The notes beneath the pieces were generated by a model. That model saw only the letters and a program-made list of their open reading frames with translations, made no database searches and had not been told where the DNA came from. From contig NZ_CP104900.1 in assembly GCF_025449215.1 (NCBI RefSeq), positions 186,001-250,000 of the forward strand: a stretch of DNA of 64,000 nucleotides, read 5' to 3'. Below, one piece after another: positions 14,469-61,488 of the stretch (the stretch's first letter is position 1; each line of letters starts with the position of its first letter). This stretch comes from Shewanella seohaensis. Its GTDB lineage: Bacteria; Pseudomonadota; Gammaproteobacteria; Enterobacterales; Shewanellaceae. A program made the position numbers and the translations under genes.

Positions 14469-15212
14469 CTAGTTTTTGAAAAATTGTTCGTTGGTACCGT
14501 ATGGGCCTAGGTTTAAATCGCGTTTACGGATGGCATCTACGCGGTCAAAGGCTTCTTCGGCCACCCGTAGATTTTTAACATCTTTACGCCAGTAGTATTT
14601 AAATCCATCAAAGTGGGCGTTGTTTGGATACCAGTAAAATACACCTAAACCTTCTTTATTGAGGATTGGGGTATTGTGGATATGGGCACCAGGAATATAG
14701 AAATATTGACCTTTGGCCAGAGTTTCAAATTTATTGTTTGCCAGTGTCTTGCTGGTGCCGTTGACTACGTAGTAACACTCTGGTTGACCATGGAAATGTG
14801 GCTCATGGTCTGATTTCAACCCATTAGTGATACCAATTACGACAGGGCTATCTGATAGCTCTTTCCAGATATAACCCACAGGTGAGTTTTTAGGATCGCA
14901 GTTTTTGGCTTCGAGCACGTTACCGTGGTCATCCAAAGTTTTACAAAAACGTTGGTCTGCGGCAATGCTGTCATTGGGTTTGATGGTGTTAAAGTCGATT
15001 TTGCCAGCTTCCCAATCGGCAATGTAGGCCTCGATTTCGGGGTTACGGCATTGCTCTGGCATAGTGTTTTGCGGCACATAGGGCGTGCTGTCGTACGGCA
15101 CTGGCGTCATTTGTTGATAGGGTAGTTGCGCGTGATTACATTGTGGGCCTTGAGCCATAACAGCTGTTGAAGTCAGTGCGGCTAATCCGAAAAGCATTTT
15201 TAATTTCATCAT
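14469..15212 (-). CDS. secreted cupin protein, DMSP-lyase-like (short DddY-like)
   Basis: 247 residues with a clear signal peptide (cleavage after AVMA), so periplasmic. The cupin metal site HFHGQPECYYVVNG fits the DMSP-lyase pattern HxHxxxExYxxxxG exactly. The second motif GQYFYIPGAHIHN supplies the last His. DddY is the periplasmic member of that superfamily and cleaves DMSP to dimethyl sulfide and acrylate. DddY proteins are usually near 400 residues; this one lacks an equivalent N-terminal part, so it could be a short form or a relative with another substrate. It lies at the end of the flavin-reductase module and has its own copy of the module operator upstream. Function in acrylate release is inference. 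Confidence 0.6.
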   Translation of the reverse strand: MMKLKMLFGLAALTSTAVMAQGPQCNHAQLPYQQMTPVPYDSTPYVPQNTMPEQCRNPEIEAYIADWEAGKIDFNTIKPNDSIAADQRFCKTLDDHGNVLEAKNCDPKNSPVGYIWKELSDSPVVIGITNGLKSDHEPHFHGQPECYYVVNGTSKTLANNKFETLAKGQYFYIPGAHIHNTPILNKEGLGVFYWYPNNAHFDGFKYYWRKDVKNLRVAEEAFDRVDAIRKRDLNLGPYGTNEQFFKN

Positions 15213-15337
15213 TCCAATCCTATTTTTACATCGCTTAATGGCGATATTCTGTTGGTTATGTTGTTACGTGACTAACAATAAAGTGATTGGTTAATGGTAA
15301 AGGTGAATTGGATCACGGCATGTTTTGAGTGGCAAAC

Positions 15338-15363
15338 TTATTCGTGACTTTACTCGCGAATAA
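15338..15363. promoter_or_regulatory. palindromic operator, copy A (before cupin gene)
   Basis: A 26-bp imperfect palindrome beginning TTATTCGTGA and ending CGCGAATAA, about 125 bp upstream of the cupin start. It is identical at 21 of 26 positions to the sequence at 19728-19753 in front of the flavin reductase. Likely bound by the divergent TetR-family protein (inference). Confidence 0.65.
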
Positions 15364-15382
15364 TCTTACCGTCCGAGCCGTT

Positions 15383-16464
15383 TTAGAGCTGCAATTGTAT
15401 GCTTAACTGCGCGTAGTTGGACTTTCCCTGCTGCGCATTGGGATGGGCAGAGCTGTTGTTATCCTCAATTTGATAGCGGCCAACTTCAATACCTAGAGTG
15501 AGTGCTTGGGTCAAGTTGGTAAACAGATTCACACCAAAGTGACTGCGATCCGTTTGTTCCCTCTCTGTACTGGTGCGCCCAAAAAGATTGTCGAGCGGGC
15601 GTAGTCAGTCCAAAAATGTCGGTAGGCAAACATGGCCGACGTCGTGGTTTCTAATTCTCCTTGGATGATATCGCGCGCGGCATCGGTGCCAACATAACGA
15701 CCTAGGTGACCATAGTGCAATTGTAGGCGTAGATCATCTTGGCCAAAGGTAAAGAGTTTGGCAGCAAGGGAGAGCCCACCAGCCCATTGCGACGTGCCCG
15801 CTGGATCTAAATAACGCACTAAGCCAGAGAGAGACACATTGCCCCATTCGCCTGATTGGTTGTAGCGGGCAATCATGTCTGGGATGTAATCATGACTGGT
15901 ATCAATCCAGTTAGGTTTTGCTGTTGTAGCCTTGGTTTGCCCATCCGTTTCGGCTTGGGTGCCGTAACTGTAGGGATTTTCGAGGGCGAACTGCCATTGT
16001 TCGGTGCAATAGCGGATAAGTGCTTGTCTTACCATGGCTTGTCCAACTAATGGCCCGCCTAAATCGGCAGTTTCGGCAAAGGTACTGGTATTGACTAAGG
16101 TTGACCAAGTTTGTCCGGCGGTGATGCCTTGATAACTGATATAGGCATGCCTAAGCCGTGGACTGTAGGAGTTGGAGATAATCGGATTCCCTTGGCTGGA
16201 GCCGACAAAATCGATTTCGGCAAAGGCTTTGGCTTCATCGGTGTTGAGCGACAGGTTAAAGCGGCTTTCTTGGGCGCCAAATTGGGTGCGTTTGCTGTGT
16301 TCGACAACCTCGCCTCCTCCTGTCCAACTGTCTTGAAAGGCCACGTTGCCTTCAACAAAGCGGGTGTTGGCCTTAATAAATCCGCCTAACTGTACATCGG
16401 CAGCATACAGGGAGGATGAACAGATAAAATAAACGGCAAGTGTAGGTAAAGATTGTAGTTTCAT
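15383..16464 (-). CDS. outer-membrane porin, DcaP-like (one frameshift)
   Basis: About 360 residues when joined. Signal peptide MKLQSLPTLAVYFICSSSLY then AADVQLGGFIKAN, typical of porins with an early beta strand; the C-terminus is LSIQLQL. The first frame runs to 15529; the remaining about 65 residues, including GVNLFTNLTQALTLGIEVG, lie in another frame. One extra base in the A5 run at 15581-15585 joins them. Frequent alternating aromatic and polar residues support a beta-barrel. It lies in the accessory respiratory module and probably lets the substrate enter the periplasm. Frameshift may be a sequencing error. Confidence 0.7.
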
Positions 16465-16484
16465 CGTTCACTCTATGGGGAAAA

Positions 16485-16514
16485 CGTAAAAAAAGCCCTA
16501 ACGAATAGGGCCAA
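16485..16514 (-). terminator. terminator with TTCG loop between the two porin genes
   Basis: On the minus strand GCCCTA-TTCG-TTAGGGC is followed by seven T. The stem with a UUCG-type loop is a textbook intrinsic terminator. It lies only about 20 bp before the start of the second porin, so the downstream part depends on read-through or another promoter. Confidence 0.85.
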
Positions 16515-16570
16515 AAAGGTATAGCAGTCTAAAACGGCAGGGAGGATGGACGTCCTAAACTGCGCAAATA

Positions 16571-17706
16571 CTAGAAGTAGTAACCAAAGTTGATGTTGAT
16601 ACGTTTATCCCAATCGTTACCGACTTCTGGTAGGCCAACGTGGTCGTTATTGGCGGTTGAGAAGGTCATGTTTTTACCCATGACAAAGTCAATCATGGTG
16701 TACGTTGGGCCAGCAGAAATCGCCATACCGGTGACGTTTTGCATGCTGTTGTCGTAGCTATCGTCATCAACATCAGGCGTCATTAAACCAAAGTCGTTAT
16801 AAAACTTAATGCTGCCCCAATCTGTGTTAACGGTTTTGGCAATGTTGATGTTATAGGCTTGGCCTTTTGAGGCGATTTCGTATTGCCAGCTCACCACCGA
16901 TACGCCAATTTTGTTGTCGTCGATAGCATCTGCAGCATTGTATTCATACTGCATGGCTTGCATTTGTAGGTTCCAGCCGTTGTAACTGCTGTCTAAATGC
17001 AGGGCTACAGCATAGCGGTCGCCATTATTGCCGGTTTTGCTGTTATAGATTTGGCCGACCTGTACTGAGCCACCAAAGGTGGTTGCGCCACCTTCGTATT
17101 CAGCGGTGTAGGTTTGGCGCACGTTGAGTTGGTTTGTTTCTTCGTTATTGTATTCCGTGCCGTTGATGGTGCCGGTATACAAGTCAGTTGAATAACGCTT
17201 GTTTTCAGTTGGGCCGTATTCGGCATTTTTATAAAACGCTAAATCGGTGTGCCAGCCGTTTTTCTCATAGGTCGCTTTTAAGCCGATGTCGTGGTCATCT
17301 TCAAAGCCTAAATAGTAAGGCAGACCAAACCACCAACTGTTAGAGATAAACTCGCGGTTACCAAAGGGTACTTTGTTGATACCAAATTGCAGTTGCCAGT
17401 CTGGGTCAATGTTGTAGTAGCCATAACCATACTTGATGTAGTTAGTGCCTGAGGTAAAACGGTATTCTGCCGCTAAACCGAAATCGCCTTTTTTCCATCG
17501 AATTTAATTGCCGCCATGTCGAAGTTAAAGTCGCCGCCTTTATCCTTCGATTTTTCATCATAATCACGATAGCCATAGTTAACGCGCACAGCACCGCCAA
17601 TATTGATGCCATCTTCTTGCACTGCGGCAAAGGCGTTAGTTTGAGATAGTGCGATAGCGGTTGCCACCATGGACAACATAAACCGGGTGGATTTTTTCAT
17701 CATCAT
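16571..17706 (-). CDS. outer-membrane porin, phosphate-selective porin-like (one frameshift)
   Basis: About 378 residues when joined. Signal peptide ends ...SQTNAFA; the protein ends INFGYYF with the terminal Phe of outer-membrane barrels. The first frame breaks at 17473 and the rest (DFGLAAEYRFTSGTNY onward) continues in another frame to 16571. One extra base in the T6 run at 17489-17494 restores it. It lies 34 bp after the tetraheme cytochrome gene, so it is co-transcribed with the reductase. A role in substrate uptake is inferred. Such porins often accompany flavocytochrome c genes in Shewanella. Confidence 0.7.
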
Positions 17707-17740
17707 TACCTTTCTTAAGTTTTTGTATTATAAAATTAAA

Positions 17741-18112
17741 TTACATTTCTTTGAACCAAGTACGGTGACACTCAGCGCACACGGGAGCCTTTTTCTCATG
17801 CTCGCCGTGGCAGGCTAAGCAGCTGGCGCCTTCGTTGTAGTGCAGCGATTTATGTGGATGGGCTTCAGGGATGGCAAGTTTGGACTCATCAACCGGAATA
17901 CTGGTGATTTCGCCATGACATTCAACGCAGGCTGCATCGGTGGCATTTTGTTTACCCGAGCCTTGGTGGCATCCTTTACAGCCATCTTGGTAGATAAATT
18001 CGTGGTTGGTTCTGCCTTGGGTGCTGCCTTTCATCTTGACAAGGTCTCCGGCATTGGCTGCGCCAGTGAACAGTGTTGCAACAACCAGTGTGAGTAGTAA
18101 TGTTTTCATCAT
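17741..18112 (-). CDS. periplasmic tetraheme cytochrome c
   Basis: 123 residues with a signal peptide (cut after GAANA) and four heme motifs: CKGCH, CVECH, CLACH and CAECH. Size and motif spacing match the small tetraheme domain fused to the flavin domain in flavocytochrome c fumarate reductase. Here it is a separate subunit, starting 3 bp after the reductase gene with its ribosome binding site inside that gene's end. It should receive electrons from the inner-membrane quinol oxidase CymA (known in Shewanella) and pass them to the flavoprotein; this is inferred from family and position. Confidence 0.93.
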   Translation of the reverse strand: MMKTLLLTLVVATLFTGAANAGDLVKMKGSTQGRTNHEFIYQDGCKGCHQGSGKQNATDAACVECHGEITSIPVDESKLAIPEAHPHKSLHYNEGASCLACHGEHEKKAPVCAECHRTWFKEM

Positions 18113-18115
18113 GAT

Positions 18116-19635
18116 TTAAGCCTGCATGTCAGATTTGATGGTTTCAGCAACGATAATTCCCATCGTTAAGCACTCCAGGCAAGCTGTTGAACTTAAACGG
18201 GTTCCACCGTGAGTACCGCCAGTTGCTTCACCAACGGCATAGAGATTTTTCATCGGAGCTAGGGTTTGACTATGCAGCACTCTCGCGCCTAAATCGGTTT
18301 TTAAACCGCCCATGCAGTAGTGCACTTTTGGCCAAATCCGCGACACAATAAACGGCGGTTTAAGCTCGACAGCCGTATCCATCATGCGGCCAAACAAGGG
18401 GTCAATGCGCTGTGGCACTTGCTTGTTGTACTCGGCAACAGTTTGTTTGAGCGGTGCAAGTGGAATATTGAATTGCTTAGCTAATTGCTCAAGGCTATCG
18501 ACTTTCCAAGCGATTTGGTCACGCACTGCGCGGGTCACTTCTTCTGCACCAACATGATCGTCATGGTTAAAAAACACCACAGGATAGGCGGGTGAGCCAT
18601 CAGGGTTACGATTTTTCATAATGGCGTCGGAGCAGGTTTTTCTATCGGCGCGTTCATTCATAAAACGCTTACCGTCTAACACATTGACTGAAATTCCTTT
18701 ATGGAAACCAATCGAGAGCAGAGCATTTGACCAGCCAAAGCCGCCTTCATCTGGCGAGCCCCAGTGACCTGTTTGAATAAAGCTCATATGAACCGGGAAA
18801 GCACCGTGGGCCATAGCCGTTAGTGTGACTTCACCCGTTGCGCCTAGGGCATTGGTACAATCTAAGGTTTTATCTAATGCAGGGTCGACCAGTTCACGTA
18901 GTACTAAGTTACGTGAGAAACCACCGTGGGCAAGGATAACGGCCTTATTGGCTTTGATGTAGATTGTTTTACCGGTTTTGAGATCCGGGAAACGATAATT
19001 TTGACGCACTTTCAAGCCAACAATCTCTTGGCCATCCATGATGAAGTCTTCAACATAATGTTGCAGACGGTACTCAACGCCTTCTTTTTTACCAGCTTCA
19101 TAGAGTTTTGTGGTGATATCGCCACCGACGCCATGCAGAGTACGGATAGCTCGCGCTTTATTGTGGCCGCCCACTTGTTGGTTAAAGCCCTCACGGAATT
19201 TTACCCCTGTATCAATACACAGCTGATAAGCATCTAGGGCACGATTAGCGATTTGTCGTAGCATGTCGGTATTTTGCATACCGCGGCCGGAGATAATTTG
19301 ATCTTTTACTAGCTCTTCGGGTGAGTCATCGTTGATCCCTTGAGCTAATTGGATTGGGTTTTTAGGGATAGCTAACCAGCCCCCGTTGATCGCTGAGTTG
19401 CCACCGATCACCTGCATTTTTTCTAATACCAGTATCGAGCCTAGACCTTGTCGCTTAGCATTTAGTGCGGATGACAGCCCCGCAAAACCTGACCCCACGA
19501 CAATAACATCACGAGTTTCATCCCATTTAATGTTTGAGGCGCATTCAGTGGCTAATGCTGAACTTGGCAATACCGCTGCGATACCGCCTACCGCAGCACC
19601 AGCACCTAGCTTTAAAAACTTCTTCTATCATGCAT
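18116..19635 (-). CDS. Tat-exported FAD-dependent reductase, fumarate-reductase-like (frameshift in signal peptide)
   Basis: About 507 residues when joined. The ATG at 19635 (GAGGG upstream) opens MHDRRSFLKLGAGAAVGG, a twin-arginine signal, only if one base is added to the A5 run at 19614-19618. Without it the frame starts at the TTG at 19570. The body has the FAD motif VIVVGSGFAGLSSALNA and EKMQVIGGNSAINGGW. Equivalents of the FccA active site are present: Arg in RFMNERADR, His in KVHYCMGGL and Arg in THGGTRLSS. This family reduces activated C=C bonds such as fumarate, urocanate, acrylate or cinnamates. The substrate here is unknown. It is the first gene of the operon. Confidence 0.85.
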
Positions 19636-19727
19636 TTTGTTAACCCTCTATGTCTGTTGCAAACAAGATAGAGGTTATGAACGGCGTCTAAGGAGAAGTG
19701 AGTCACGACTTTTTTTCAGTGACAATT

Positions 19728-19753
19728 TTATTCGTGAGTTATCTCGTGAATAT
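19728..19753. promoter_or_regulatory. palindromic operator, copy B (before flavin reductase)
   Basis: A 26-bp imperfect palindrome beginning TTATTCGTGA and ending CGTGAATAT, about 95 bp upstream of the reductase start and 220 bp from the TetR gene. It matches copy A at 15338 at 21 of 26 positions. An inverted repeat TGTGATTT-N6-AAATCACA also lies at 19833-19854 in the same region. Confidence 0.65.
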
Positions 19754-19970
19754 TTTTTCTTTGGGAATTGACCGGAGGTAATACAGGTTAAATGAACAAA
19801 ATTTAACTTATGACAAATTCCTGTTGATTAAATGTGATTTTGAAGTAAATCACAAAGATTAAAATTTAAAACTCTGTGATGTGAGCTTAATCCCGATTAT
19901 TCGTTTATTGGCTATGTCTCATATTTGTGCGCAATCCATAATTTACTTTTCGGTATACAGGAATAAGTAA

Positions 19971-20764
19971 ATGAAATGCCCCACTGACTCACTATCTATT
20001 TTGCGTTGTAATCAGATATTGGATGCAGCAGAAAAGCTGATTGAGTCACAAGGTGTTGTGTCTTTTAAATTTTCTCAACTTGCTCATGAGGTTGGATGCT
20101 CTACAGGAACCTTATATAAGTTTTTTGAACGTAAAGAAGATGTGTTGGTTTGTTTATTCTTAAGAAGTGCGACATCAAATCACTTACCCATTTTTATCCA
20201 TAAGAATCCAGATTTAACAGCACAAGAGAAAGTGCTCTTACCCATTTTTTTTACCTTTGAAACCATTAAGCGTAGTAGTAGCTTTTTTACACTGCGTTCG
20301 GTGTCAGTCAATACAATGGTTTGGAAACTCGCGAGTGATGAAAAAGTGGAGCGGTTTAAAAACGCATTAATGCCTTTTGGGGTTGGTTTACAGACGCATT
20401 AAATTTAGCGGTTGAAAATGGTGAGTTAGTCGCAACCCCATTAGAAATAAAAGAACTTGTTCAAGGGATTACCTTTTATTTGACAGGATCTTTGACACAA
20501 TTTGAAAGTCAGCTCATAGCCCCTGAGTATTTATCTAATCGCCGAGAAACCTGTTATCGACATTTAGCAAACCTGATGGAACGATACAAATGGCAAAAGC
20601 CCTTAACCCTTGCGCTTTTTGATTCATTAGAGGCGAGAACCACTGCGTTTTTTGACCAACACTATCGTGATCATATGACCTGTGCGGCTTGTAGTGCACT
20701 ATCGAATAAAAGCACTCATGAGTTATCAAACTGTACACGCAATAGCTTAACTTGCGACATATGA
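19971..20764 (+). CDS. TetR-family regulator with Cys-rich tail (one frameshift)
   Basis: About 264 residues when joined. The N-terminal helix-turn-helix domain reads QILDAAEKLIESQG then STGTLYKFFERKEDV, typical TetR. The frame breaks at 20402; one extra T in the T4 run at 20374-20377 continues it as MPFWGWFTDALNLAVENGE to 20764. The C-terminal tail has several cysteines (CAACSALSN, ELSNCTRNSLTC), unusual for the family and possibly redox- or metal-sensing. It is divergent from the flavin-reductase operon and is its likely repressor. Base composition is AT-rich compared with the flanking core genes. Confidence 0.75.
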
Positions 20765-28247: not shown

Positions 28248-29364
28248 ATGCGACTCAAAATCACCTTGGCCATACTGTTACTCGGGAGTGTTATTATGAC
28301 CTTAGATCCCAACACCATTCAAACTGCCCCAACTCAGGATCAACGCTTTCGTAATGAAGCGCCAAACGCTCACAGTGGTGAAGGTAATTTACCTGCTATT
28401 TTATGGCGTTACGTCACTGAACGTATTCCCGATAAGACTCCGAGCCAAGCGCTACCTATTCAGCCCATGCAACTGCCTGCTACGGCGGGGGCAACGCCTA
28501 TGCTGTATAAAATCAGCCACTCGACTGTGCTGTTACAGCTAAACGGCCAGTATTGGTTAACCGATCCTGTGTTTTCAAAGCGCGCCTCACCAAGCCAATG
28601 GTTTGGTCCAAAACGTTTTCACGCTCTGCCCATTGAGCTCGAGAACATTCCGCCACTCGCTGGGATTATCTTGTCCCACGATCATTATGATCACTTAGAC
28701 AAGCAAAGCGTAGTGGCGCTCGCTGCGCGCACTCAGAAGTTTATTGTGCCACTAGGTGTCGATAACCATTTGATTGCTTGGGGTATCCCGAAGGAAAAAT
28801 CGTCGCCCTCAACTGGTGGCAAGCAACCGAACATCAAGGTGTGCGCTTTACCGCCACGCCCGCACAACATTTTTCGGGCCGAGGACTGAAAGACAGAAAT
28901 CAAACCCTGTGGGCCTCTTGGGCTATTCAATCCCCTGAATTAAATATCTTTTTCAGTGGCGACTCAGGCTATTTTGATGGTTTTAAAAAGATTGGCGATA
29001 AACTGGGCCCCTTCGACCTCACCTTAGTCGAAACTGGCGCCTACGATGAGATGTGGGCCGATATCCACATGCAACCTGAGCAATCGCTGCGGGCACATTT
29101 AGATCTTCAAGGTCAATACCTTATCCCTATCCATAACAGCAGTTTCGACTTAGCGCTGCACAGTTGGTACGAACCCTTAGAGCGGATTGCCGCGGCGGCG
29201 AAAGCCTATGCCGTCCCCCTGCTGACTCCTGAATTTGGTCAGGGATTAACCTCAATGAGCTAGCCCACAGCCCAGCGCTCAATCAAGGGTGGTGGAAGTC
29301 ATTCTTGCCCAAAGACAGACCCGAGTTTGAAGTGGTTCCAGTCAAGCTCGCCTCCAACAAATAG
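28248..29364 (+). CDS. metal-dependent hydrolase, beta-lactamase fold (NAPE-PLD/UlaG-like; two frameshifts)
   Basis: About 372 residues when joined. An N-terminal hydrophobic segment precedes the domain. The metallo-beta-lactamase signature SHDHYDHLD is intact, with STVLLQLNGQYWLTDPVF before it and FSGDSGYFDGF after it, fitting the NAPE-PLD/UlaG branch that cleaves phosphodiester or lactone bonds. The frame breaks near 28787-28789 (CCC run) and near 29254 (AA); adding one base at each gives a continuous protein ending VPVKLASNK at 29364. No ribosome binding site is visible before the ATG, which lies 15 bp from the operator. The substrate is unknown. Confidence 0.75.
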
Positions 29365-29542
29365 TCATAGAAGTATCTCCTTAACGGCGCTTAATCAGTG
29401 CGCCGCTAAGGTTTAAGTACAACGAAAGCATTAAGCTCCCGGCAAGCAGTCAGTACGCCTAGACGTTTTTAGCGACATAAGCATACAATCCGACCTTGTA
29501 TCCTGCTGAATCAATTTATCTTTTGAGAATGTCGTACTAAAG

Positions 29543-30255
29543 ATGGTGAAAGGTTTTCGTTTATTGATACTCGCAGCGAGCCTAATCTGCGGCCTTGGTT
29601 ATCTCGGCTACCACGGTCTAACTCGTTATAACTTAAATACGGACTATCAAGTGGGTGATGTGCTCGACTCACTCAATGGCGTCGATATTTATTATAACGG
29701 CGGCGTCAACACTAACGAGGGGCGCAACCTCTCCCTCGACGGCTATAACCTGGGTATCAAATACCAATGCGTAGAGTTCGTTAAACGTTACTTTTACCTG
29801 CGTTATCAGCACAAAATGCCCGACAGTTTCGGTCATGCCAAAGACTTCTTCAATGACCTGTTGCCCGATGCGAGCTGGAATGAAAAACGCGCCCTACGGC
29901 AATATACCAATGGCAGCCAAAGCAAACCTATGGCTGACGACTTACTGGTATTCGCGCCATGGATGTTTAATCCCTACGGCCATGTCGCGATTGTCGCCAG
30001 CGTCACTGAGACCAGTATCGAAATTGCCCAGCAAAACCCCGGGCCTTTTGCGCCGTCACGGGAGGTTTTCCCTTAGTGCAACGTGAAGGCCTGTGGTATA
30101 TCGATGCCCCGCTCACTAAGGGTTGGCTACGCTGGGAAGCTCCTGCGACCATGATTGTGGCGGGAGAGGTTGAGGAGAGCGTAGGGGAGAGTGTTGAAGG
30201 AAGTACTGAGGGAAATACCCAAGCAAACCAACAAGCGACTCCACTTAAACGCTAA
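29543..30255 (+). CDS. CHAP-domain amidase/peptidase (one frameshift)
   Basis: About 237 residues when joined. An N-terminal membrane anchor or signal (LLILAASLICGLGYLGY) is followed by a CHAP domain with catalytic Cys in YQCVEFVKRYFY and His in PYGHVAIVASV. The family includes murein endopeptidases and the glutathionylspermidine amidase domain. The frame stops at 30076 but adding one G to the run at 30060-30062 gives GGFPLVQREGLWYIDAP and a Glu-rich tail ending at 30255. Followed at 16 bp by an unknown gene and then an M23 peptidase gene, suggesting a small cell-wall operon. Confidence 0.75.
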
Positions 30256-39468: not shown

Positions 39469-40571
39469 TTACTCTAAAATATGAATTTGTTCAGATTTTA
39501 GCGCAACCGTGGTTTGCATCCCTTTGGTTAAACCAAGCTTTTGTGCAAGATGGAGCGACACTTCCGTATTAAGTTGCAACTCAGTCCCGGTGGCATAACA
39601 GACCACGCGCACCGACTCGCCCATCACCAGCAAGGAGTCGATGGTGACATCTAACTTATTAAAACTGCGGCATAAACGTCCATTTGAGATGGCGTTAAAT
39701 CTGATGCCTTGATTCGGGATCACCCAACGCACTTTACTGCCCACGCTGCGGTCTTTGCCAAAATCACTGGCGATCAGCTGCTCGCCAAATTTGAGCCAAG
39801 TAATGTCCTTAGTACGGTCTTGGAACACTACTTCGCCATCGAAAATATTTCTTAAGCCCATCTGCCGCGCAACCGCCTCGTTACGTGGACGCGATAACAC
39901 CTCAAACGGCGCGCCCTGCTGCAACATCTGACCTTGGCTAATCAAGATCATCGAATCGGCCAGCAGCAGCGCTTCGTTTAAATCATGGGTCACCATAATG
40001 ACGGGGCAAAGCAGTTGCTCTTTGAGGCGAGCAAGTTCGAGGTATAAACGCTCGCGGGTTTCTCTGTCCACTGCCGAAAAGGGCTCATCGAGTAACAACA
40101 CCGACGGTTCTCGGGCAAGGGCGCGAGCAAGCGCAACCCGCTGGCGTTGACCGCCGGAGAGATGCATAGGCAGTCTATCGGGCAATCCATGCAAATTGAC
40201 CCGTTCTAACCAGTCCTTCGCCCTCGCAATTCGCTCCGATTTGGGAATATGGTCAAGCCCTGCAACCACGTTCTCGAGCGCGGTAAGATTGGGAAATAGC
40301 CCAAAATGCTGTGGCATATAGCCGATATGGCGCTGCTGTGGCGTCAGTGCGGTGCGACTTTGATGGTCGAACCATGGCGTTTCACCAAACACAATACTGC
40401 CCGCATCGGGATGATTCAGCCCTGCGATCATCCGCAGTAACGTTGTCTTACCGCCCCCGAAGGCCCGACGACAGCCAACACCTCACCCGCCTTACAGCTA
40501 AATTCGGCGCTCAGTTTAATATGCTTTTGGTTTTGGATCTGGCAATGCAGATCAGCGATGATTTGCGCCAC
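39469..40571 (-). CDS. modC: molybdate ABC transporter ATP-binding protein ModC (one frameshift)
   Basis: About 367 residues when joined, from the GTG at 40571 with AGGAGG five bases upstream, overlapping modB by 20 bp. The frame breaks exactly in the Walker A motif: adding one C to the C5 run at 40454-40458 gives GPSGGGKTTLLRMIAG. The remaining part has the signature HLSGGQRQRVALARAL, Walker B VLLLDEPFSAVD and a switch His (MVTHD). A C-terminal TOBE-like domain binds oxyanion. It energises molybdate import with ModAB. As modAB and the rest of modC are intact, the break is probably a sequencing error. Confidence 0.88.
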
Positions 40572-53498: not shown

Positions 53499-53837
53499 CC
53501 CGTTATATCCTGCATAATAATTTTACGGACGAGAACATTCTGCCTTAACCTTGGCAGATAAAATACTGGTCAGGGATAAAATAATTTTAACCTTCAGCAG
53601 ACAATTCCCCTCAAGCTGTAACCCGCATAACTGCAATAAAAATGATGCCGATAAGGTCATATGCTGTACTTCGAGTTAATGATTGGAGCCATGCGGACTT
53701 TCTGTTAGCTTGAAAAAACAGCTCAATAACTGCCACATTTTGTTGATAGAGTGATCCAATAAACCCGCGCCACGTATTGAGCCTGACAACCCATAGCCAC
53801 CACTATGGCACCAGCTTGCCCTATGGAGAAATCGAAT

Positions 53838-55936
53838 ATGCCAGTTTTGCAAACACTCAAACTTACGGGTGAGAATGAGGCGCTGAAACGTCAAGAGCTT
53901 AAACAATACTTCAATCAAACTTGGGCACTCTATGAATCCCTCTTCGAGCTGATAAAGCATGACGAGGCTTATTACGTTAAAGCCGAACCACTGCGCCATC
54001 CGCTAATATTTTACTTTGGCCATACCGCCACTTTTTATATTAATAAACTCAAGCTGGGTAAGTATCTCGATGAACGAGTGAATGATCACTTTGAATCTAT
54101 GTTTGCCATCGGTGTGGACGAAATGTCTTGGGATGACCTCGACGAAACCCACTATCAATGGCCAAGTGTCGCAGAGGTAAAGAGTTATCGGGATCAAGTC
54201 AAACAGGTCGTCAATCAACTGATTGATACCATGCCAATCACTCTGCCGATCAGCCAAGACAGCCCCGCTTGGGTCATCTTGATGGGCATAGAACACGAGC
54301 GCATTCACTTAGAGACCTCTTCCGCCATTATTCGCCAGCTTCCATTAGAGGATGTGAGTGCTAATTCCCAGTGGCCAGAATGTCAGGATGTTGGTAGCGC
54401 CGAACCCAATCAACTGCTTGCCGTGGCGGGTAAAAAAATCACCTTAGGCAAAAAAGAGCAAGACAACACCTATGGCTGGGATAACGAATACGGTAATAAG
54501 AGTTTTAAAGTCGCCGACTTTAAAGCCTCAAAGTACTTAGTGAGCAATCAAGAATACCTAGCCTTTGTCGAAGCGGGAGGCTATCAAACTCAAGATTATT
54601 GGAATGAGGAAGGCCAAGCTTGGCTGGCGTATACCCAAGCCCAAATGCCGCGCTTTTGGCGTCGCCGTGATGATAAATGGTGGCAACGTAACCTCACCAG
54701 CGAAATCCCTTTGCCGCTCAATTGGCCCGTCGAAGTCAATCAACTCGAAGCTAAGGCCTTTTGCAATTGGAAGGCGCGCCAAAGCCAGAGCAATATTCGC
54801 CTGCTCACCGAGGCCGAGTGGTATATCTTGCGGGAAAATGTACCGAGCGATGCCCCCGATTGGCATGAAGTTCCAGGCAATATCTCGCTGGCTTATTACG
54901 CCTCTTCCTGCCCGGTGAACCGCTTTAAACACAATGATTTTTATGACATTGTCGGCAATGTCTGGCAATGGACTGAAACCGCTATCGACGGTTTTAATGG
55001 TTTTGCTGTACATCCGCTTTACGATGATTTTTCAACCCCCACCTTCGATGGCAAGCACAATCTGATTAAGGGCGGTTCGTGGATTTCAACGGGCAATGAA
55101 GCCATTGCAGCCTCACGCTACGCCTTTAGGCGTCACTTTTATCAACATGCCGGATTCCGTTACGTCGAATCGTTGCAAAATCCAGAACAAATGGCCGAGG
55201 TCAATGTGTACGAAACCGATGAACTGATTTCCCAGTATTTAGAATTCCACTATGGCGCCGAGTACTTTGGTGTGCCTAATTTTTGTGTTAATGGGGTACA
55301 ACAAGCACTCAACGAGATCCAACTTGAGCACACCACCAAAGCCTTAGATATAGGTTGCTCAGTCGGACGCGCTAGTTTTGAGTTAGCCAAAGTGTTCGAC
55401 CACGTGGATGGCATCGACTTTTCGGCGCGCTTTATCCAGCAGGCTTACGCTCTGACCGAACAAGGCGAAAAACGCTACACCATTCGCACCGAGGAGACTT
55501 ACAGGAATTCAAGAGTGCCAGCCTTGCTAAACTGGGATACCTTGGCGAAGCCAAAAAAGTCAATTTTATCCAAGGGGATGCCTGTAATCTCAAACCAATC
55601 TACACCGGATACGATTTGGTCTATGCCTCAAATCTCATCGACAGATTGAACGACCCTCAACATTTCCTCACCAGTATTGGACAACGCATCAACCAAGGAG
55701 GATATCTAGTTATCGCCTCGCCCTATACCTGGCTCGAAGACTACACGCCAAAGGATAAATGGCTTGGGGGGATTAAAGTCAAAGGGGAGAACTTCACTAC
55801 TTTGGATGGGTTAACCGAAACCTTGATAGGCCAATTTGAACTGGTCGCGGTGAAAGAAATCCCCTTCGTTATCCGCGAAACCAAGCGTAAATTCCAGCAT
55901 TCGATTTCAGAGATGACGATCTGGCGTAAGCGTTAG
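53838..55936 (+). CDS. ovoA: 5-histidylcysteine sulfoxide synthase / methyltransferase OvoA (one frameshift)
   Basis: About 700 residues when joined, from the ATG at 53838 with GGAG upstream. The DinB-like N-terminal part has the iron ligands HX3HXE in GIEHERIHLETS (about residues 152-158). A formylglycine-enzyme-like domain follows (NVWQWTETAIDG, GGSWISTGNEA), then a SAM methyltransferase (ALDIGCSVGRASFELAK). OvoA joins cysteine to histidine and methylates the product in ovothiol synthesis. The frame shifts at 55493-55494; one added G gives EGDLQEFKSASLAKLGYLG and runs to 55936. Monocistronic. Confidence 0.88.
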
Positions 55937-55960
55937 CTTTCAAGATTAATCGTCGCCCTA

Positions 55961-55996
55961 AAGAAAAAATCCGCCAGATAATCCTTTCTGGCGGAT
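55961..55996 (-). terminator. terminator of second chemoreceptor gene
   Basis: ATCCGCCAGA (55969-55978) pairs with TCTGGCGGAT (55987-55996); the minus-strand side continues as T6. Confidence 0.85.
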
Positions 55997-56083
55997 GCAT
56001 AACAAACGGCGCAGCAATAACAGTCATCCAGTTGCAAGAACGGCGAATGCTCGGCATTGCTTACCTATGCTTGGCACTGCGTT

Positions 56084-58038
56084 CTAGACCTTAAACTGAG
56101 CCGTTGTTAAACCAAGTTGGTTTGCTAGCCCTAACAGGCTGCGGGTGCTCGCGGCCACTTGGCTGATGGCCGCGCTATTTTCCTCCGCCGCCGCGCTGAG
56201 ACCTGCAATGCCTTGGGCTATCGTCGCCGACACTGTGGTTTGCTCCTCTGCGGCCGTTGCCGTTTGGACCATTAAGGCTTTGAGTGTTTCGAGCCGCATA
56301 GCAATATCATCCACCGCCGCTTGCATGCCTTCGGCATCCTCTGCCGTTTTAGATGCCTCAGACGAACAAGTCACACTATGCTGCGCCAGCACACCCGATT
56401 GCTGCTGGATCCCCTGCAATACCTTTCCAATGTCCTGCGTCGCCTCTTGTACCTTCACCGCAAGTTGCCGCACTTCATCGGCCACCACCGCAAATCCACG
56501 CCCATGCTCGCCTGCTCGGGCAGCTTCAATCGCCGCATTGAGGGCTAACAGATTGGTTTGCTCGGCAATCGCATTAATCACATCCAACACACTGCCGATT
56601 TTCTGGCTATCAGCCTCAAGATTTCCGACCTGCTGATGAATGGCGGCAAAACTTGCTAGTGTCACCTGTAAGCTTTGGCGAGTACTCGCAAGATTTTGTG
56701 AAAGAATGCCACTCGATTGAGTACAAGAGGCCACCTCGTCGGAGGATTTCAGTGTATTGGTACTGATTTCGGCGGCAGCATAACTCATTTCCTCTACGGC
56801 CGTGGCTAACATATCGGTCTCTTTCGCCTGCAATTGAATGCTGCAATCGGCTTGACACATAGCCGCAGAATTTTGCTCCGCGGCAGACTCTAGCTCGTGG
56901 CCCATCCCCACCAATTGGCTAATAATTTCCTTTAATTTGGTCTGCATCCTCGCCAGCCAGCTCATTAAATGATTATCGGCATGGGCGTGGGAGAGACTAT
57001 GGGTTAAGTCCCCGGAGGCGATAAGACTAGTCAAATGACACATATCCTCGGGCTCACCGCCCAGAGGTTTAAGCACAAAGCTGGTCACCAGTTTTGCCGC
57101 CGCGATCGCCAGTACCACAGACAAGGCACACACCATCAGCCCGATATACATCATATGATAGGCAGGCGCGGCAATTTCACTCACATCAATCTCGGCCATT
57201 AAGCCCCATTTGAGCCCCATTTCAATGACAGGCGAGTAGGCTGAGAGAACCAGATTATGATTGTAATCATAAACCTGCATAACCCCCTCTTTGCCAGCTA
57301 ACGCAGCTGTCACCGCCAGAGTGTCGACACCATTTTTAGCGACCGAGCCTGCAAAGGAGGCAGATACGGTACGATTGATGGGGTCAAGAAAAGAGTCAGA
57401 ACGCATTCGATTATCGGGGCCGATGAGATAGGTTTCCCCGAATCCCCCATCCCTTCGCGGATCTGCATCACGCGGTTGATCCGCTCAATAGAAACCTGTG
57501 CCGCCACCACAATATGCTGTCCATGGTATTGAATGCCTTGGCCAATAAAGGCGGCCGCTTGTCCGTTTGATGGTGCATAGGCGGAAAAATCCTGTAAAAA
57601 CACAGTGTCCGATGTCGCGAGCGCCTTATCGAAGAGTTGTGCAAGTCCTGAAGAACGATAGGGCCCTGTACGCAGATTGGTTCCGTAATCAGGCTCTTTC
57701 GCCACAGTATAAAAAACCGTACCGTCATCGGAGATGATAAACAGATCGTAAAAACCCAGCAGTTTGTTGAGGGATTTGAGCGTTGAGTCTAAATCGCTCA
57801 GGGTTTCTAGATTCGGCTGGCTGGCAATCACCGCGCTAACGGACTGTAAGTTATCTGAGAAATCTTGAAACATACCGTTGATCTGCCGCTGTTTAATCTC
57901 TCTAACGGCCACCAAACGGGATTGAGCCTCTGCAAATAACTCATTTTTGGCAAGATAGGTCACTATCGCTGTCGATAGGATCAGAGGTAACAGAACGATC
58001 AACAGACTAATCAGTTGAATTTTACGCGTAAATCCCAT
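56084..58038 (-). CDS. methyl-accepting chemotaxis protein (one frameshift)
   Basis: About 651 residues when joined, from the ATG at 58038 ([20 protein letters not shown]) with AAGGAG seven bases upstream. Helix, periplasmic Cache-like sensor, second helix, then the signalling domain with [20 protein letters not shown] core. The frame breaks in the sensor: adding one base to the C4 run at 57437-57440 gives [20 protein letters not shown], a well-known Cache motif. The tail LTTAQFKV resembles that of the first chemoreceptor (LVAKFKV), so both may be of related origin. Confidence 0.85.
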
Positions 58039-60955: not shown

Positions 60956-61488
60956 ATGCGTACATTCACCCTCATCAGCTTATTGCTGCTCAGCCTGTTC
61001 GCTCAGGCAACAGTGTACAAATGGGTCGATAAGGATGGAAAAGTCCATTACTCAGATGAGCCGCATCCCAATGCCGAGGTTGTTGAGTTAAAAGAGAAAA
61101 CCCTCAATCAAATTGCACTTCCCCCGTAAAAAATGACGCGGATGACTCGCAAGTGATCCAGCAAATCCAGTATCAAGTCGTCATCACCTCACCAGAAGAA
61201 GAGGAAACCGTGAGAGACAATAACGGCGACTTTCGGGTCACGGCCACTGTCACCCCGGAGATCAAAAGCCAGTATCTGATGGCACTAAAACTCGACGGTC
61301 AAACGGTCGGCCAGCCTCAAGTGGGTGGCATCTTCCAACTTAAGAACATCGACCGAGGTGAACACACCATTGTTGTCGATGCCATGACTCAAAACGGCAA
61401 AGTCTTTGCATCTAGCTCTCCACGAAAGATATTTCTTCATCAAGCGGCGATGAATCCAGTCCCGAAAAAACAACCTAAATCTAATTAA
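60956..61488 (+). CDS. DUF4124-domain periplasmic protein (one frameshift)
   Basis: About 177 residues when joined. Signal peptide MRTFTLISLLLLSLFAQA, then the DUF4124 core TVYKWVDKDGKVHYSDEPHP. The frame stops at 61129; one extra base in the C5 run at 61121-61125 gives ALPPVKNDADDSQ and continues with a beta-rich domain (VVITSPEEEETVRDNNGD) to 61488. DUF4124 genes are commonly placed between glnA and glnL in gammaproteobacteria. The function is unknown; the conserved place suggests a link to nitrogen control. Confidence 0.78.

Follow-up and report, generated by a model that had tools for sequence, protein, structure and literature searches.

A candidate lyase-fed respiratory module built around a secreted cupin in Shewanella seohaensis

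Since the genome of Shewanella seohaensis, a single contig of 4.75 Mb, holds two parallel modules in which a lyase stands with a flavoprotein and a tetraheme cytochrome, one with DddY and one with an ergothionase-like lyase, the question arises what a further block of this kind might do, which lies at positions 14469 to 20764 of the 64,000-nucleotide stretch analysed here (the window) and contains a secreted cupin. From our point of view, it is rather probable that the block represents a lyase-fed respiratory module, in which an onium carboxylate is cut to an enoate and the enoate is respired. The initial annotation had proposed that the cupin cleaves its substrate to an unsaturated acid that a periplasmic reductase then uses, and this idea is supported by the DddK-like active site of the cupin, by a probable operator that is shared within the module and private to it, and by the parallel modules. 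As substrate, dimethylsulfoniopropionate (DMSP) or dimethylsulfoxonium propionate (DMSOP), with acrylate as the enoate, and another onium carboxylate appear about equally probable. The genes are the following:

14469..15212, minus strand: secreted cupin of 247 amino acids, predicted periplasmic lyase, closest in the PDB to DddK, with the DddK metal ligands and two tyrosines kept
15383..16464, minus strand: porin A, DcaP-like, with one frameshift in its last fifth here and intact in relatives
16571..17706, minus strand: porin B, a putative porin, with one frameshift in its first fifth here and intact in relatives; copies elsewhere adjoin DddY, cupin and other lyases
17741..18112, minus strand: small tetraheme cytochrome c with four CXXCH motifs, probable electron donor
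18116..19640 (end approximate), minus strand: predicted enoate reductase with flavin adenine dinucleotide (FAD), flavocytochrome c family, with a start of the twin-arginine translocation (Tat) type in relatives
19971..20764, plus strand: divergent TetR-family regulator, with one frameshift near its middle here and intact in relatives

Open reading frames and family searches place all six genes where the initial annotation had put them, in the minus-strand order flavoprotein, tetraheme cytochrome, porin B, porin A and cupin, with the TetR gene divergent. The flavoprotein scores 568.8 bits against TIGR01813 (flavocytochrome c; cut-off 285.45), the cytochrome matches Cytochrom_c3_2 above its cut-off, and the regulator carries a TetR_N domain (34.1 bits, cut-off 24). 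Below their cut-offs lie the matches of the cupin to Cupin_2 (22.4 vs 27.2 bits) and of porin A to DcaP PF19577 (19-21.4 bits, gathering cut-off 27). The N-terminal piece of porin B yields a weak Porin_4 match and nothing stronger, and an intact relative has no Pfam match up to E 0.001. The signal peptide of the cupin was recognised by eye.

It is the cupin on which the assignment as a lyase depends. DddK, the cupin DMSP/DMSOP lyase of SAR11, is both its best PDB relative by profile and its best structure match, and the DddK residues His56, His58, Glu62 and His96 of the metal site, the base Tyr64 and Tyr122 all have their counterparts in the window cupin; across the cupins compared, the metal ligands and both essential tyrosines are invariant except for a single glutamate. 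The roles of these residues follow the passages on the DddK active site in PMC10686828 and PMC12582016. Equivalents of Trp26 and Trp110 are likewise present. However, the two proteins are only 23-26% identical over the aligned part, and the window cupin, unlike DddK, is secreted and carries an additional N-terminal part as well as a helix at its C-terminus. The cupin is likely a lyase of onium carboxylates. We also considered it as a homolog of DddY, as HxHxxxExYY and NTIH are by eye common to both, but the profile comparison with hhalign was not significant (probability 2% over 15 columns, between profiles low in diversity) and this candidate was dropped. A search of the genome with DMSP_lyase PF16867 matched the DddY gene alone, itself below the cut-off, and PF16867 is absent among the Pfam matches of the cupin up to E 0.1.

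The flavoprotein shares with the fumarate reductase FccA and the urocanate reductase UrdA the FAD_binding_2 fold and, in the alignment, the catalytic Arg, His and Arg of this group (numbered Arg401/402 and His364/365 in the relevant part of PMC7921117). It differs from FccA in that it has no fused heme domain, the heme protein being encoded by a separate gene. Further, the position of FccA His365, which binds the second carboxylate and corresponds to UrdA Tyr373, is replaced within the stretch IQTGHWGSPDEGGFG; the clade consensus has glycine at the place of His365, and the consensus IQxGxWxSPDExGFG takes the place of this stretch in all four flavoprotein groups compared (window type, n=48; cupin2 type, n=22; DddY type, n=9; ergothionase-linked, n=1). 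The loss of His365 would fit an acid with one carboxylate. With the Arg/His/Arg set, a separate tetraheme cytochrome and an export motif in relatives, the protein thus has the features of a split enoate reductase and lacks both the His365 and the fused tetraheme domain of FccA. As to export, the Tat signal that had been assigned to the reductase is borne out by its relatives: in G039 and G045, where the frameshifted genes of the window are intact, the N-terminus reads MHDRRSFLKLG, which we take to be a twin-arginine start. In the present assembly, the motif is out of frame and the open frame 18116-19624 has no Tat-type start.

Grouped by identity, the flavoprotein belongs to a clade of its own. 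Among the best 120 of 651 matches in a database search limited to 8000 scored candidates, 50 proteins are 63-97% identical to it and the next stand at <=45%. One relative with 70% identity lies far outside Shewanella, in Desulfuromonas versatilis (P0206), and possibly reflects a transfer. A comparable pair of a periplasmic flavoprotein and a separate tetraheme cytochrome is the Mrd/Mcc methacrylate redox system of Geobacter sulfurreducens AM-1, which reduces acrylate or methacrylate but not fumarate (PMC4427408). That paper mentions neither cupin nor porin, and no lyase partner is seen in the passages considered here. Its authors already proposed that a reductase of this type arose to cope with acrylate produced by a lyase.

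What ties the cupin to the reductase in Shewanella is a palindrome, ATTCGTGA-N6-TCACGAAT, which occurs at 15340 and 19730 with 1 and 2 mismatches, respectively:

15340..15361, no strand: palindrome ATTCGTGA-N6-TCGCGAAT, probable TetR operator before the cupin gene
19730..19751, no strand: palindrome ATTCGTGA-N6-TCGTGAAT, probable TetR operator before the flavoprotein gene
19839..19854, no strand: CRP-like site TTTGA-N6-TCACA in the divergent promoter region, its position kept in many Shewanella

These two places, before the cupin and before the flavoprotein, are the only exact fits of the degenerate pattern in the 4.75-Mb genome; at one mismatch there is one further place, and a reversed control pattern gives four. 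All 15 exact places found in 18 relatives fall in the module locus, and they occur in 13 of the 15 cupin-bearing genomes and in none of the three others. When rows with identical or short upstream DNA are left out, the palindrome (<=3 mismatches) stands upstream of 32 of 33 Shewanella genes for orthologs of the cupin (cupin1) and of 36 of 37 flavoprotein genes of the window group, in the latter mostly 124-128 bases before the twin-arginine codons, whereas 23 of 1000 random 400-base pieces drawn from these loci, real sites included, match at that level. At this threshold it is absent from 18 genes for the distant relative cupin2 and from 21 cupin2-type flavoprotein genes; it is also missing from the nine Ferrimonas/Paraferrimonas-type rows each of cupin and flavoprotein, and none of the examined modules with DddY, an ergothionase-like lyase or cupin2 shows it. 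The palindrome is probably the operator of the divergent TetR, whose binding we infer. The CRP-like site (<=1 mismatch) precedes 27 of 46 window-group flavoprotein genes, vs 22 of 1000 random pieces, and none of 42 cupin1 genes.

From these data, one can imagine the following path. A small zwitterionic (onium) carboxylate would enter via the porins and be bound by the secreted metal cupin, with its carboxylate at the metal and its cationic group in an aromatic cage. Tyr147 of the cupin would take the alpha proton and the leaving group would be expelled, which would yield an alpha,beta-unsaturated acid that the Tat-exported FAD reductase could reduce with electrons handed over by the tetraheme cytochrome, the latter being presumably supplied by the menaquinol/CymA pool. 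The TetR protein would repress only two transcription units, via the shared operator, until substrate or product appears.

A periplasmic lyase with a split flavocytochrome is a known design. According to the part of PMC3338564 that describes it, a cluster of DddY, acuI and fccA/fccB exists in Shewanella, in which the neighbors of a periplasmic DMSP lyase are a tetraheme cytochrome and, as a separate protein, a flavocytochrome c flavoprotein. The DddY module of the present genome has a flavoprotein, a tetraheme cytochrome and a copy of porin B, and nearby genes resemble acuI, tetR and lysR by eye. Unlike in this arrangement, the window lyase is a short cupin, the flavoproteins of the two modules are only ~42% identical, the TetR has its own palindrome and no acuI-like gene is seen next to the window module. 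Because the same genome has the parallel DddY and ergothionase-like modules, we count the cupin module as a new version of the DddY-FccAB arrangement; this version, with its private TetR switch, is new, and no description of it was found in a literature search of open-licence PMC papers.

The ergothionase-like module lies at ~3.55 Mb (L061:7346-10943), where a periplasmic lyase with ergothionase as its best PDB relative (6s7j, E 2.3e-87) adjoins the same types of flavoprotein and tetraheme cytochrome. It is a candidate for respiration of ergothioneine via thiourocanate. Its lyase belongs to the aromatic amino acid lyase family and not to the cupins. Seven of 16 further flavoprotein loci in other Shewanella repeat this module (lyase at least 74% identical), two have more distant ammonia-lyase-like enzymes (37-39%; L208:4485-8020 and L209:4158-9225, the latter also with porin B) and seven are without such a lyase.

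Porin B recurs in these surroundings, within 2.5 kb of 17 of 19 cupin1, 9 of 11 cupin2 and 18 of 22 DddY genes compared with one of eight hand-picked flavoprotein genes without cupin, and 44 of the 76 copies found adjoin cupin1, cupin2 or DddY. As it also adjoins the ammonia-lyase-like enzyme in L209, we dropped the idea of a DMSP-specific porin.

How widely is the module distributed? We searched 60 Shewanella genomes (59 relatives and the window's own) and 39 from elsewhere in the order. A cupin1 gene (>=77% identity) is present in 19 of the 60 and in none of the 39. The closest named cupins belong to Shewanella sp. PS-2, S. xiamenensis and S. decolorationis S12, the last of which has an intact cupin 99.6% identical to that of the window. 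Flavoprotein and cytochrome adjoin it in 18 of the 19; in G026, the contig ends and the flavoprotein is located elsewhere in the genome. Both porins are also present at most of these loci (G014 and G001 are without porins, and G050 has a different order). The distant cupin2 (31-34% identity) occurs in 11 of the 60 genomes, in seven of them directly next to the cupin1 module and inside a similarly built one. A wider scan with two peptide patterns and one genome per species gave 49 loci and added Ferrimonas, Paraferrimonas, one record labelled Marinobacter, Falsirhodobacter and a Granulosicoccaceae bacterium. Nine of these loci (L100-L108), from Ferrimonas, Paraferrimonas and 'Marinobacter', combine the cupin with flavoprotein and cytochrome, six of them with porin B as well, and at the Falsirhodobacter and Granulosicoccaceae loci no other module protein was found within the 20 kb examined. 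In Falsirhodobacter sp. alg1 (L109:10001-12521), a gene for a secreted alginate lyase of the PL7 type follows ~250 bases downstream of the cupin, and the 20 kb examined there yielded no flavoprotein.

That the cupin cleaves DMSP is less certain than its role as a lyase, given that the genome already has DddY, that the profiles of the two lyases do not match and that the flavoprotein forms a separate clade. It is possible, though we hold this tentatively, that the block is a second module for DMSP/DMSOP, with the cupin as a new DMSP lyase of the periplasm and a reductase that converts acrylate to propionate as in the DddY module but under separate control. The DddK-like residues, including the carboxylate-binding and cation-cage ones, speak for this, as does porin B of the G039 module, an intact copy that shares 67% identity with the porin beside DddY in the present genome and 81% with its DddY-linked counterparts in G019 and G058. 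Ferrimonas cupins (47-49% identical to that of the window) also count in its favour, the flavoprotein next to them being 56% identical to that of the DddY module. However, DddY already has its own reductase, cytochrome and porin here, and the two lyase genes tend to be found together instead of substituting for one another: 12 of the 60 genomes have both, seven only the cupin, ten only DddY and 31 neither (Fisher p 0.008, uncorrected for kinship). The residues around the predicted substrate site of the flavoprotein also differ, and neither its distinct clade nor a porin that is not DMSP-specific favours a duplicate function. One could equally imagine, and with the same reservation, that a different onium or beta-substituted acid yields a different enoate, Shewanella having one module per precursor (DMSP, ergothioneine and that of the window). 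The presence of DddY in 12 of the 19 cupin1 genomes, the separate flavoprotein clade, the private palindrome and the precedent of the ergothionase-like module are consistent with this, but no gene of the operon names a substrate and the cation-cage residues are the same as those of DddK. We regard it as unlikely that the cupin is instead an isomerase or a sensing cupin, for example a KdgF-like protein acting on unsaturated uronates, with the reductase using an unrelated enoate. This would rest on the single alginate-lyase adjacency, the Granulosicoccaceae neighbours differ, KdgF ranks below DddK in Z, and the palindrome links cupin and reductase in Shewanella.

Lastly, the module might be decaying and non-functional in this strain, since four of its six genes (porin A, porin B, TetR and the flavoprotein at its signal peptide) carry one frameshift each; four in 6.3 kb exceed the ~0.12 per kb of the rest of the window (p ~0.008). 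We nevertheless consider decay very improbable and did not retain it as the principal explanation, in view of the deletion bias and the low ratios of nonsynonymous to synonymous substitution rates (dN/dS). Aligned with G039, the ten broken stretches of the window show 12 frame-changing indels. Eleven are deletions of a single base, of which seven fall in homopolymer runs of at least three bases, and the twelfth inserts two bases. Four of the deletions lie in the operon and seven in six other, unrelated genes (28248-30192, 39472-40571, 53805-57801 and 60956-61485), where the insertion is also found and where assembly error is probable too. Downstream of the frameshifts, dN/dS is still 0-0.008 in porin B, 0.02-0.05 in porin A and 0.09-0.14 in TetR, and G039 has exactly the same cupin protein. 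As relatives carry the genes intact and the same type of deletion recurs elsewhere in the window, assembly error is the likeliest cause, with very recent damage as a possible but less probable one.

If the lyase-fed module is taken one step further, the cupin may represent a new family of periplasmic onium-carboxylate lyases distinct from DddY, with a substrate other than DMSP, in a Shewanella plug-in design with one flavoprotein and one tetraheme cytochrome per lyase. DddY, the window cupin, cupin2, the ergothionase-like lyase and other ammonia-lyase-like enzymes would then each make a respirable periplasmic enoate. This extended proposal is a tentative one. Were it true, osmolytes and antioxidants would become precursors of electron acceptors, one more lyase family would join the enzymes degrading marine osmolytes, and the use of beta-elimination to produce one's own electron acceptor would be a modular strategy of general reach, not confined to DddY. 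With its two sites, the private palindrome offers a cheap route to the inducer and hence to the substrate.

The block had further been described as more AT-rich than its neighbors, hinting at transfer. This applies strongly to the TetR end, where the TetR gene and intergenic DNA have a GC content of 36.8%, and little to the part from flavoprotein to cupin (46.7%, vs 49.5% in the window outside ~14.2-21.6 kb). Composition is a weak argument for transfer, for which the patchy distribution and the differing neighbors would argue better. An SDF transporter, a TonB receptor and glnA were considered as module members and set aside, as among the loci examined they flank it only in the window, G039 and G045/S. 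decolorationis. Flavoprotein orthologs with an internal stop or split frame occur in other Shewanella (G038:C9, G008:C18 and G001:C63), and the module may therefore be lost in places. Both neighboring modules in G004 and G021 (L147, L148) keep flavoprotein, cytochrome and porin A without cupin and porin B, as if the enoate were imported directly. In one cupin2 module (L046:6063-6521), the genes for cupin2 and porin B are separated by one for a small DUF3299 protein, which by eye looks exported.
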